Source: Candidatus Gastranaerophilales bacterium (GTDB lineage Bacteria; Cyanobacteriota; Vampirovibrionia; Gastranaerophilales; Gastranaerophilaceae). From it: DNA of 40,215 bases. Below are positions 384 through 5,074 of this stretch, piece after piece; position 1 is the stretch's first letter, and each line of letters opens with the position of its first letter. The stretch covers positions 1-40,215 of the forward strand of contig CALVBV010000005.1 of the NCBI GenBank assembly GCA_944325815.1. Direction: 5' to 3'. The notes beneath the pieces are model-generated. The model had not been told where the DNA came from. It ran no database searches and worked only from the letters and a program-made list of their open reading frames with translations. The position numbers were made by a program, and so were the translations under genes.

Positions 384-1958
384 ATGAATTACAATGAAGA
401 TTATCAATATGACAGCTGTGTCTCAAGAGGCATCTGCTCGGTTAATCCGAGAACTTCTGCGCTGCAGGAAATTCTAATTATTTATCTTAAAACTACTGCT
501 TATTATGCTTTAAAACTCCATGAGGCCGGTATTATCAACGCAGATTCCGGAAGCATCATACTGAATACTATTTCTATAATGGTTTCAAATCCGGAATTTT
601 CAGAATCCGACTTTGAAAGACTTACTAAAAAGTTTAATGAGATTCTGCCGGATATTATTGAACAATATGAAAATCTCTGCCGGGAAAGAAATATTGAGCC
701 GGAGTTTATTGAAACACCGTTTAAAGATTATAAAAAAATAGATATTGTTCAGTCCATAAGGCTCGGAGAAAAAGAGTTTCTTAATGAAACAAAGTCTGCA
801 CCGCAGGAGATTCGTGATTTGTACAAGATACTTTTTGTTATTGCAAAAAGTATTTGTATTAATCTTTTGGATTTGGAAACTTACGGGAAAAACGAAAAAG
901 AAGGGTATCTGGCAATTCTGAAAATTCTTGATTCTCTTAATTCAAAAGAACGCGATTCAGACAGAATTAAAACTCTCGTCCTTGATGTTTCCAAGAAGGA
1001 CAATGAATTAATGACGCTTTTAAGACGGACTCAGGAAGAGCGATACGGCAGACAAAGAGTTAATGAGGTATCATATTCCACAACTCCGGGGAAAGCCGTA
1101 CTTGTTGCGGGTTCTAATATAAAAGAGCTTGAAGATATACTGGAGGCCTTCAACGATATTGATATCGATGTTTATACTCATGATGAAATGATGCTGGCGA
1201 ATACATTTCCGAAATTTGCAGAGTACAAAAATCTAAAAGGACAATTCGGACAGGGAATGGAAGAGTGTCTTTTAGATTTTGCGACATTTCCGGGGCCGAT
1301 TATTCTTACCAAGCACTCGCTTTTTAATGTTGAGCATCTCTACAGAGGAAGACTCTATACAACGGATTCTGCCTGCTCAAAAGGAGTTATACCTATAAAG
1401 AATAAAGATTTTGCTGAAGTTAAAGAAGCGGCTTTGCAGTCAAAAGGCTTTAAAACCGGAAAACAATGTGAAAGCGTGAATATTGGATATAATTTTGAGG
1501 ATTTTATATCGGAATTAAAACAAAAACTTGCGGAAAAAGAGTATTCCAATATATTTATTATAGGGCAGGCAGGCTACACGCTTGACCAGCAGGCATACTT
1601 TCACAAGCTTTTAAAACAGACGCCCGATGATGTTTTAATAATTTCGCTCGCGTATAATTTGACAAAAGATAACATAATTAATATAAACGGCTGTTATGAC
1701 AGTTTTGCGGTTATACGGACAGCAGAAGTGGTAAAAGAAATTACCGGGCTTCCTGTAACAATATTTTTTCCGCAATGCGACCGTTACACAATCTCTCAAA
1801 TGACGTATTTGAGCCGGTTTGAAAACTTTAATATTTTTGTCGGAAAATGCACGCCTTTGATGCTTAACCCTAACCTTATAAACACTTTAAACAAAGTTTT
1901 TGGGATAAACGGTCTGAGTTCGGTTAAAAAAGATTTAGACAAAATTTTGGGTGAATAA
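384..1958 (+). CDS. Hybrid-cluster protein (Hcp) homologue with most metal ligands lost
   Basis: The 524 residues align by eye with Hcp (hydroxylamine/NO reductase, the prismane protein). The N-terminal GICSVNP...ALQEILI stretch matches the Hcp GVCGKTP...ALQDLLI region. PGKAVLVAG (235-243), VYTHDEM (263-269), a RGRLYTTDSACSKGV stretch and the C-terminal NPNLINTLNKVFGI also match. Hcp normally binds a [4Fe-4S] and a 4Fe-2S-2O cluster. Here only the CX5C half of the N-terminal motif remains (C12, C18). H266 and C437 are kept. The usual TTNC is TKHS (309-312), GGCDG is GQAGY (394-398), LACGK is LAYNL (422-426), and the distal E-x-K is D-R-Y (466-468). A conventional hybrid cluster is therefore unlikely; the role may be structural, redox-altered or unrelated. 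No clear ribosome binding site precedes the ATG. A terminator-like hairpin follows. Confidence 0.75.
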   Translation: MNYNEDYQYDSCVSRGICSVNPRTSALQEILIIYLKTTAYYALKLHEAGIINADSGSIILNTISIMVSNPEFSESDFERLTKKFNEILPDIIEQYENLCRERNIEPEFIETPFKDYKKIDIVQSIRLGEKEFLNETKSAPQEIRDLYKILFVIAKSICINLLDLETYGKNEKEGYLAILKILDSLNSKERDSDRIKTLVLDVSKKDNELMTLLRRTQEERYGRQRVNEVSYSTTPGKAVLVAGSNIKELEDILEAFNDIDIDVYTHDEMMLANTFPKFAEYKNLKGQFGQGMEECLLDFATFPGPIILTKHSLFNVEHLYRGRLYTTDSACSKGVIPIKNKDFAEVKEAALQSKGFKTGKQCESVNIGYNFEDFISELKQKLAEKEYSNIFIIGQAGYTLDQQAYFHKLLKQTPDDVLIISLAYNLTKDNIININGCYDSFAVIRTAEVVKEITGLPVTIFFPQCDRYTISQMTYLSRFENFNIFVGKCTPLMLNPNLINTLNKVFGINGLSSVKKDLDKILGE

Positions 1959-2092: not shown

Positions 2093-3235
2093 ATGCAGAA
2101 TTGTCCGTCAATCATAGTATTAGATAAAAATTCAAATTCAAGAGAGGTTATTAAAGGTTATCTTGAGGGGATGAATGTTATACTCTTTGATGATTTTAAA
2201 GCCGGATTTGAAGAAATAAAAAAACTGGAAGGCAATGCTATTGTAATATTGGATATTTCAGAAAAAGATAAAGAAAGCCAGCATATTGCCGAGAATTTAA
2301 AACTTTATACTTCAAAAATTATAATAACGTCTGTAAATTGTTCCACCAATACAATAATCAAGGCGCTTCGCCTGGGTGCCAAAGAGTTTCTTCCTAAGCC
2401 ATTGCTAAAAGATGACTTGGTACGTACAGTAATTCGTCTGGCGAGTCAGTCTGCAGAGAGTGCCGGGTCGGAATCCAAGATTATAACAGTGTATTCCAAT
2501 AAAGGCGGTATCGGAAAAACGACGATTGCGGTAAATCTGGCTTCCGAGCTGGCAAAAGTTACAAAGGATAAGGTTGCATTAATTGACTTAAATCTTCAGC
2601 TTGGCGATGTTTCGACTTTTCTTAATCTAAACCCGCCTTTTGATGTTAACTATGTTATTCAAAGGCTTCTGGACAAAGACGAAGCAACATTGCTTAAAGC
2701 ATTTGAAAAATATAAAAATACGTCAATGTACGTTCTGGCAGATCCGAGTTATATAGAACAGTCAGAGAGTATAACAACCCAGCAGATAACAAAACTTTTC
2801 AGAAGCCTGAAAAAGGTGTTTCCATATATTGTAGTTGATATGTCTTCAAATATAGATGCAAATTCATTAAAAATATTAGACAGTTCGGATTGGATACTAT
2901 TTACAACAATTGTGAACATTCCGGCAATAAGAAACTGCCAGAGGTGTCTTAATCTGTTTAATTCCAGAAGATATCCAAAAGATAAAGTGAGGGTTGTTGT
3001 CAATCGTTATATGGAAAATGATGAAATTAAGATAGAAGATATTGAAAATACTCTTGGTGAAAAGGTTTATTGGAAAATTCCGAATAACTATTTTACAATA
3101 ATGGAGGCAATAAATAAGGGCGTCTGTATTTCAGAAATAAATGCGGATTCCAATATTGGCAATAATTTCAGAGATTTTGCCTCCAAAGTTTCCGATGACA
3201 TTATTGAACAATCAGTAATACAGTACAGGGCTTAG
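2093..3235 (+). CDS. CpaE/TadZ-like protein: receiver domain plus MinD/ParA-type ATPase
   Basis: Residues 1-118 form a response-regulator receiver fold with an acidic residue at D11, the candidate phospho-acceptor D54 (VILDIS) and K102 in the PKP signature. Residues 128-380 are a SIMIBI ATPase with the deviant Walker A KGGIGKTT (137-144), a VALIDLNLQLGDVSTF switch region and a VVDMSS Walker B. This receiver-ATPase pairing is typical of CpaE/TadZ proteins, which place pilus secretion machines at the cell pole. No Tad operon surrounds it, so here it may localise the type IV pilus encoded at 15355-21214 or another envelope complex. An 11-base gap leads to the membrane protein at 3247, implying a shared transcript. 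Confidence 0.8.
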   Translation: MQNCPSIIVLDKNSNSREVIKGYLEGMNVILFDDFKAGFEEIKKLEGNAIVILDISEKDKESQHIAENLKLYTSKIIITSVNCSTNTIIKALRLGAKEFLPKPLLKDDLVRTVIRLASQSAESAGSESKIITVYSNKGGIGKTTIAVNLASELAKVTKDKVALIDLNLQLGDVSTFLNLNPPFDVNYVIQRLLDKDEATLLKAFEKYKNTSMYVLADPSYIEQSESITTQQITKLFRSLKKVFPYIVVDMSSNIDANSLKILDSSDWILFTTIVNIPAIRNCQRCLNLFNSRRYPKDKVRVVVNRYMENDEIKIEDIENTLGEKVYWKIPNNYFTIMEAINKGVCISEINADSNIGNNFRDFASKVSDDIIEQSVIQYRA

Positions 3236-3246
3236 GGACAAATATT

Positions 3247-4071
3247 ATGATAAAATGTATAAAAAATAGCTTTAATCTTACCAATAAATATATAATACTG
3301 GCAACTCCGCTTATTTTGTTTTCGCTTATTTCAAGTCTTTATATACTGTTTTCGGTAAACGGAAATATAATCAGTCTGGTGTTTGCGGCAGTGTTGTTTA
3401 TCCTGATGCTTACGGCTTTTTTATCGGGATGGTTTTATATGATAAAGATGTGTGTTTCATCGCCGGAGAATAATGAAGATCCGAATTTTTTAATCAAAGA
3501 ATTTCCTTCCGGCGTTGGTGAGTATATATTGCCGGTGCTGGGTCTTGTTTTAAACACATTTATTGTTTCGTTGTTTTTGCTGGTAATTGCATATTATACG
3601 GGGATGAAGTTTATCGGAGATATCGGAATTTCTCCGGAGGCGTTTTCCAAAGCAATAGAAACAACGGAGTCTCTAAAAAACTTTTTGTCATCGCTCACGG
3701 AAACCCAGCTATTCAGGCTTAATGCTTGGAACATTCTGTTATTTCTTACAATGTCATTGACATATTTTCTTATAATGTTGTATTCACCGGTTCTGTTTTT
3801 TAAAGAGAAGAATCCGTTTAAAGCATATTTTATATCCTTGAAAGATTTGTTCTGCAGAAAGTTCTTTAAAACACTCGGGCTTTATCTGATTCTGTTTATT
3901 TCATATTTTATACTCTCTGTTCTTACAACGATTTTTGGTATGAATATAGTAATGCACTTTGTGTTCACACTGATAAATTTTTATTATCTTGTATTTGCAG
4001 GAGTGCTTGTGTTTAATTATTATTACAAGAACTTTATCCAAATCGGCGGAAATCTGGACGAGCGGGCGTAA
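3247..4071 (+). CDS. Polytopic inner-membrane protein of unknown function
   Basis: The 274-residue protein has about six hydrophobic segments, at roughly residues 14-35, 40-65, 96-118, 160-180, 210-230 and 235-262. A soluble loop of about 40 residues (119-158) lies between two of them. The helices are rich in Phe, Ile and Leu and carry no charged catalytic signature. The general shape resembles uncharacterised DUF4013/DUF975-type membrane proteins, but I do not claim the family. It follows the CpaE-like gene by 11 bases, so it could be a membrane partner of that ATPase. Confidence 0.7.
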   Translation: MIKCIKNSFNLTNKYIILATPLILFSLISSLYILFSVNGNIISLVFAAVLFILMLTAFLSGWFYMIKMCVSSPENNEDPNFLIKEFPSGVGEYILPVLGLVLNTFIVSLFLLVIAYYTGMKFIGDIGISPEAFSKAIETTESLKNFLSSLTETQLFRLNAWNILLFLTMSLTYFLIMLYSPVLFFKEKNPFKAYFISLKDLFCRKFFKTLGLYLILFISYFILSVLTTIFGMNIVMHFVFTLINFYYLVFAGVLVFNYYYKNFIQIGGNLDERA

Positions 4072-4246: not shown

Positions 4247-5074
4247 ATGTTTAGCACAGATATTATCTATGATGTTGTAACGTTTTCGGTCGGAGATACC
4301 AAAGCCGGTACTAAAATGGGGAAATTACAGCTTAAGGATTCTAAAACCGGAGAAGTTTTAAACTGTATTCTTTGGGAAGAAGCTCTCAATAGGATGGATG
4401 ATAAACTCTTTAGATGCGGAAACCAGCTCAGGATTGTATCCGGCTCGTTCAACGAAAAGTACAATAATTGTCTGGTTACTGCGCTCGAACTCATTAAGGA
4501 AGCTAAAACCGGATTGGATGAAAATGAACGTACACAAGCATATGAAGAAATTATTGGATATATAAACCGAATTAAGGATACTAAACTCAGAGAGTTTGTA
4601 CTCAATATTTATAATGAAAACAAAGAAAAAATGCTTATATGTCCTGCCGCAAAAATGATGCACCACAATTACATAGGCGGACTGATGGTTCATATTCTGG
4701 AATGCTTAAAATATGCTGAGGCTAATATGCAGGCGTTTTTCCAGCGCGTTAATCAGGATGAAGTTTTTTCTGCCTGCCTTTTGCATGATATTGGCAAGCT
4801 GTTTGAATATACCGTAAATGTTGAATCCGGACTAATTGATTATGACGAAAATTTTAGAAAAGAATGGATAAGCCACTCGCAGTACGGATTCTCAATTTGT
4901 ATGACTGCAGGATTCAAACGCATTGCCAAAATGATTGCAGCGCACCACGGAAGAGCTGAATGGGGGGCAATTGTCGACTTGAACGAAAAAGATTTGGAAC
5001 CTTATGTGTATTTGATTCATCACATTGATGACCTGTCGGCAAAATTCGGCAAAACAAATGTTCTGATGTTATAA
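4247..5074 (+). CDS. yhaM: YhaM-type 3'-5' exoribonuclease (OB fold plus HD domain)
   Basis: The N-terminal 85 residues look like the OB-fold nucleic-acid binding domain of YhaM. The C-terminal part is an HD phosphohydrolase-type nuclease domain. Its metal-binding residues are visible: H149 in GGLMVHI, H180-D181 in LLHDIGK, H233-H234 in AAHHGRAEWG and D261 in HHIDDL. YhaM trims single-stranded RNA ends in Firmicutes and also acts on DNA in vitro. At 275 residues this one is shorter than the roughly 310-residue Bacillus protein. The start is set by the AGGAGA site. It is co-transcribed with uvrC, which begins 8 bases after its stop, so a link to nucleic-acid processing or repair is plausible. 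Confidence 0.8.
   Translation: MFSTDIIYDVVTFSVGDTKAGTKMGKLQLKDSKTGEVLNCILWEEALNRMDDKLFRCGNQLRIVSGSFNEKYNNCLVTALELIKEAKTGLDENERTQAYEEIIGYINRIKDTKLREFVLNIYNENKEKMLICPAAKMMHHNYIGGLMVHILECLKYAEANMQAFFQRVNQDEVFSACLLHDIGKLFEYTVNVESGLIDYDENFRKEWISHSQYGFSICMTAGFKRIAKMIAAHHGRAEWGAIVDLNEKDLEPYVYLIHHIDDLSAKFGKTNVLML

Follow-up and report, generated by a model that had tools for sequence, protein, structure and literature searches.

Interest in hybrid-cluster protein (Hcp) centres on its unusual Fe-S-O cluster, and there is still no agreement on its physiological role. It has been credited with NO reduction and with protein S-nitrosylation, the latter being a matter of debate (review PMC10210160). Classes I, II and III have seven conserved ligands in common, and class III is a homodimer in which the outer helices are absent and all seven ligands are present (PMC10502027). 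The same superfamily includes CODH-V (CooS-V of Carboxydothermus), which has neither the usual C-cluster nor CODH activity (PMC10502027). No description of a ligand-less Hcp family, and no account of Hcp in Gastranaerophilales or Melainabacteria, was found in the open-access literature; a glutaredoxin-Hcp operon pair was not apparent there either, as far as titles and abstracts tell.

The window, that is, the whole stretch of DNA analysed here, comprises 40,215 nucleotides of contig CALVBV010000005.1 from Candidatus Gastranaerophilales bacterium (Gastranaerophilaceae). The gene under study lies near its beginning:

384-1958, + strand: divergent Hcp-family gene with a full-length Hcp fold; open reading frame of 524 aa with an ATG start

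Family identity and predicted fold

The Prismane profile PF03063 covers residues 14-518 of the 524-aa protein (107.4 bits against a gathering score of 27, E 1e-30), and profile positions 17-512 of 513 are aligned, which places the protein in the superfamily. TIGR01703 and PRK05290, the hydroxylamine-reductase/Hcp equivalogs, match it over the full length at 234.1 and 223.5 bits, below their equivalog cut-offs of 360.8 and 367, respectively. Among solved structures, E. coli Hcp 7de4 is the closest in sequence (phmmer, 5.8e-42). An AlphaFold model made with 20 sequences of the family as input (pLDDT 84.6, pTM 0.87) is poor only at residues 1-19 and 491-494. Foldseek matched this predicted fold to D. 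vulgaris Hcp 1e1d (TM 0.81, E 4.9e-27), while VIA-align gave a Z of about 29 over 498 residues against Hcp structures and of 35.5 over 382 residues against class III Hcp 7e0l; in the rankings of both programs Hcp came first and the CODHs next. The original prediction had claimed an end-to-end match to Hcp and had proposed as checks a PF03063 alignment and an overlay on a Desulfovibrio Hcp, and both bear the claim out.

With class I and II proteins (D. vulgaris 1e1d, E. coli 7de4 and M. thermolithotrophicus 8cnr) the window copy shares the fold, the three-domain order and most of the framework Gly, Tyr and Thr residues, but five hybrid-cluster ligands out of seven are missing from it, and its N-terminal Cys are down from four to two. 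The divergent copies as a group further differ from these classes in having new Cys at positions 465 and 489, and often at 295, and in many genera a glutaredoxin gene directly upstream. Domains 2 and 3 are held in common with class III Hcp (M. marburgensis 7e0l), from which the window protein is set apart by a full helical domain like that of classes I and II. Like CODH-V, it is a superfamily member that probably lacks its usual cluster; however, a hybrid-type cluster is still present in CODH-V, whereas the ligands for one are missing here.

Loss of the cluster ligands

The ligand numbers are those of D. vulgaris Hcp, as in the known Hcp structures; in our alignment, the expected residue stands at each of these sites in all 34 canonical copies. 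The corresponding features of the window are as follows:

417-437, + strand: C12 and C18 (CX5C), the kept Cys of the N-terminal cluster (D. vulgaris C15 and C21), each in 110 of 117 copies
1113-1115, + strand: S244, replacing hybrid-cluster ligand H244 (alignment)
1185-1187, + strand: E268, a ligand position that is still Glu, and E, D, N or S in the wider family (alignment)
1266-1268, + strand: C295, Cys in 77 of 117 divergent copies and Gln in all canonical copies
1317-1319, + strand: S312, replacing ligand C312 (alignment)
1569-1571, + strand: A396, replacing the persulphide ligand C406 (alignment)
1653-1655, + strand: Y424, replacing ligand C434 (alignment)
1692-1694, + strand: C437, aligned with ligand C459; the window's genus is nearly the only one with Cys here (alignment, tree)
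1776-1787, + strand: C465-D466-R467-Y468, a new Cys followed by Asp in place of ligand E494 and Tyr in place of K496 (alignment)
1848-1850, + strand: C489, the other new Cys, where the following predicted strand ends (alignment, AlphaFold)

In D. vulgaris numbering, the five ligand replacements are H244S, C312S, C406A, C434Y and E494D, and K496 has become Tyr. The motifs TKHS (309-312), GQAGY (394-398), LAYNL (422-426) and DRY (466-468), which the original prediction had read as replacements of cluster ligands, all align at ligand sites, and the two Cys it had counted in the remnant of the N-terminal cluster are C12 and C18, C3 and C6 being the missing ones. It had not mentioned the change of H244 to Ser, or that two ligands survive in place, E268 (same number in the window copy) and C459 (C437 in the window copy). 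The complete set of Cys in the window protein is 12, 18, 99, 158, 295, 331, 362, 437, 465 and 489. Ligands at shifted positions are excluded, as no Cys takes the place of those lost at 312, 396 or 424. An upstream start would not restore C3 and C6, as the frame 5' of the ATG contains a single Cys and lacks any CxxC. C437 is largely a trait of the window's genus and may have been regained there, because most other divergent lineages on the tree are without Cys at this position. Judged by these residues, both the hybrid cluster and the N-terminal [4Fe-4S] cluster appear to be lost, the ligands being too few.

Distribution, ancestry and selection

Of the 58 genomes available for the genus, 57 contain PF03063; all 57 have a low-scoring divergent copy in an intact frame, and three of them have an additional canonical copy near 520-550 bits. 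For the family as a whole, a profile built on divergent copies finds matches in 182 of 191 genomes and 39 of 41 genera; canonical copies are within its reach too, at weaker scores (to about 1e-50), and the safe count is about 170 of the 191 genomes. Matches at class and phylum level outside the Gastranaerophilaceae are canonical in score. A short-peptide scan of 84,980 species genomes, which took its peptides from the window protein and detects close relatives only, returned just 20 relatives, mostly labelled Gastranaerophilales or Melainabacteria. The genus-wide and family-wide presence rules out contamination or a one-off. In a maximum-likelihood tree built with the ligand and Cys columns removed, all divergent copies fall on one side of a branch with an SH-aLRT of 100, and canonical Hcp with every ligand intact coexists in many of the same genomes.

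Of the seven ligands, none is left in 54 of the 117 distinct divergent copies, one in 32, two in 26 and three in five, while the canonical copies keep seven of seven (34/34). Almost any residue is seen at the persulphide position Cys406 in the 117 divergent copies, and S312 is found in all 35 distinct divergent copies from the genus. The median dN/dS is 0.08 over 22 close pairs (Nei-Gojobori). The gene hence stayed under purifying selection after the loss of the cluster ligands, and the replacements are conserved across orthologues, which was a question that the original prediction had put to related genomes. That this copy has decayed beside intact orthologues fails as an explanation, since the copies are ligand-poor throughout the family and their frames are intact. 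We conclude that the gene belongs to a family-wide Hcp paralogue that has lost the cluster ligands and kept the fold. The original interpretation is thereby upheld in part: its pseudo-enzyme half has good support, from the lineage-wide replacements, the purifying selection, the single clade and the canonical Hcp alongside in many genomes.

In two other genera divergent Hcp-like genes stand in tandem, three of them in L120 (6020-10882) and two in L121 (429-3685), and the surviving residues differ from copy to copy. A 57% identical copy is also found in a record named 'uncultured Acinetobacter sp.' (L045), which is probably mislabelled because the neighbours are of Gastranaerophilales type.

New cysteines beside the vacated cluster site

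We counted a column as new Cys when most divergent copies, but none of the canonical ones, have Cys there. C465 occurs in 110 of 117 divergent copies, adjoins the position of ligand E494 and is Tyr or Phe in canonical proteins; C489 occurs in 106 of 117, where canonical proteins have Thr, Asn or Ser. Both are present together in 106 copies, C465 alone in four, C489 alone in none and neither in seven, and the pair is absent from all 34 canonical copies. C12 and C18 are likewise mostly lost or kept together, and C295 never occurs without both of them (77/77 have both). These co-occurrence counts carry shared ancestry; in a phylogenetically controlled test the co-loss of C465 and C489 was not significant, with only about three loss events on the tree. 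In one subclade of the window's genus (L007, L011, L015, L018, L023, L028, L029 and L030) C489 has changed to Trp or Lys, and C465 is also lost in half of it.

The beta-strands predicted by AlphaFold at 458-465 and 482-489 end at C465 and C489, and these strand ends would place the two Cys close together, beside the vacated cluster site. Domain 3, the source of four of the seven ligands, is relaxed in the divergent copies (conservation 0.43 versus 0.77 in canonical Hcp), yet its nine most conserved positions include C465 and C489.

Linkage to glutaredoxin genes

In 38 genomes, belonging to 15 genera, the Hcp-like gene is immediately preceded on its own strand by a glutaredoxin-like open reading frame of 74-118 aa (one of these genomes appears under two loci). 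The gap to the Hcp-like gene is 0-27 bp, apart from one overlap of 11 bp and one gap of 59 bp. Pfam and NCBIfam confirmed the glutaredoxin identity (PF00462) in the four examples scanned, and the active-site motif is CPYC, or in some CPYS. This is a separate protein, proposed as a redox partner, and no part of the Hcp-like protein itself. None of 33 canonical loci has a glutaredoxin beside Hcp. Because the gene is directly upstream in 15 sampled genera, the two are probably co-transcribed where they are adjacent.

The linked glutaredoxins are mostly of one short type, and five are Grx3-like and adjoin deep-branching copies. Since the two types are only 22% identical, the linkage probably arose at least twice. 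C465 and C489 are retained in 37 of the 38 linked copies, the exception being L128, which lacks both. Four linked copies have lost C12 and C18 and kept C465 and C489, which points to the latter pair as the partner site.

No glutaredoxin gene is linked to the Hcp-like gene within the window's own genus; the one glutaredoxin detectable by Pfam in the window genome is of the short type and lies on another contig. In genome G316 (L205 3297-4053), wecB, the glutaredoxin gene and rpsL-rpsG are in place and the Hcp-like gene is cleanly missing between rpsG and the glutaredoxin gene. The glutaredoxin persists there without the Hcp-like gene and therefore has other clients, and the Hcp-like gene is occasionally dispensable.

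Upstream region and neighbouring genes

330-377, + strand: putative promoter, with the dyad ATTGC-N8-GCAAT at 330-347 and TATCATATA at 369-377 just 5' of the ATG; spacing conserved in the genus

In many copies of the genus the ATG is preceded, at 54 bases, by a dyad ATTRC-N8-GYAAT and, at about 15 bases, by a TATNATATA box, a layout as if the mRNA were almost leaderless. A score of at least 8 is reached in 24 of 37 upstream regions, against a mean of 7 and a maximum of 14 in plain base shuffles, and the exact pattern occurs at four other places in the genome. Terminator and sigma-70 promoter scans of the surrounding sequence yielded numbers that differ from those of shuffles by no more than about one standard deviation.

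The two next genes (2093-4068) are conserved neighbours in most loci of the genus. The first (2093-3235) has a receiver domain and a MinD-like ATPase of the CpaE type, and the second is a membrane-protein-like reading frame of 274 aa with no Pfam match. An operon with the CpaE-like gene was set aside as functional evidence, given a gap of about 135 bp and conservation of the neighbour in the genus only. A YhaM-like HD-domain protein (4247-5074) is encoded downstream here, whereas in many relatives its gene lies on the upstream side of the Hcp-like gene in divergent orientation; its placement is a local rearrangement.

Proposed function and alternatives

The new Cys pair and the glutaredoxin operon of related genera are the two strongest clues to the new job. 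We infer thiol-redox chemistry at C465/C489 with glutaredoxin as the reductant, and our leading, still tentative reading (probability roughly 0.45) is a cluster-free Hcp paralogue that works by such chemistry coupled to glutaredoxin. The Hcp fold would be retained without its hybrid and N-terminal [4Fe-4S] clusters; C465 and C489, beside the emptied site, would cycle between dithiol and disulphide or bear a modified thiol; and glutaredoxin would reduce them. Given the activities ascribed to Hcp, its substrate might be a nitrosative or sulphur species. Several observations speak against this reading: the window's genus has no linked glutaredoxin, one of its subclades is without C489, the losses of C465 and C489 are too few for a significant test, their closeness is deduced from predicted strand ends, and glutaredoxin occurs without the Hcp-like gene.

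A different metal, which the original prediction had also offered, or a smaller Fe-S cluster might instead be bound through combinations of C12, C18, C295, C465, C489, C437 and D466, with the glutaredoxin delivering or sharing a [2Fe-2S] cluster. Glutaredoxins can carry such clusters, which speaks for this reading along with the CPYS active site of some linked ones, the strong conservation and near-constant pairing of C12 and C18 and the strict dependence of C295 on both. We nevertheless consider it less likely than the thiol reading, as no set of four soft ligands is family-wide (C295 in 77/117 and C437 in 31/117), C12 and C18 are absent from the four linked copies mentioned above, and the N-terminal 19 residues are modelled without confidence. 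Rather improbable is a catalytically dead scaffold or regulator, with structural Cys and an old fold that serves to bind a partner or ligand. Domain 2 is indeed the best conserved (mean majority frequency 0.62 versus 0.42 and 0.43), and D298, R321 and G322 are among its new near-invariant residues in the divergent copies; a scaffold leaves both the two independent glutaredoxin linkages and the conserved Cys pair unexplained.

A working hybrid cluster with altered ligands, serving as NO or hydroxylamine reductase, could draw on E268, C437 and D466, which in the window copy still have, or nearly have, the character of ligands, but would seem very unlikely from the residues when 54 of 117 relatives keep no ligand, the Cys406 position tolerates almost any residue and canonical Hcp is already in many genomes. 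A decaying pseudogene, as the absence of the gene from a few genomes and the clean empty site in G316 might hint, is refuted by the intact frames, the dN/dS and the conservation across the family, and has a negligible chance of being right.

Returning to the glutaredoxin-coupled thiol paralogue, a broader scenario, which we hold with less assurance, is a lineage-wide conversion of a metal-cluster enzyme to thiol-redox work without a cluster: the Hcp cavity would have been emptied and fitted with a redox Cys pair, and the protein, coupled on two independent occasions to different glutaredoxins, would have been retained by almost all Gastranaerophilaceae, either next to true Hcp or instead of it.

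Significance

A ligand-less relative of Hcp that is under strong selection across a family shows the scaffold to be usable for another purpose and provides a natural control for what the cluster does. The PF03063 score is well above the cut-off, and domain-based annotation may hence credit NO or hydroxylamine detoxification to a copy without the needed residues. The glutaredoxin linkage opens a direct and cheap biochemical test. The gene is nearly universal in a common gut lineage with few or no known isolates.
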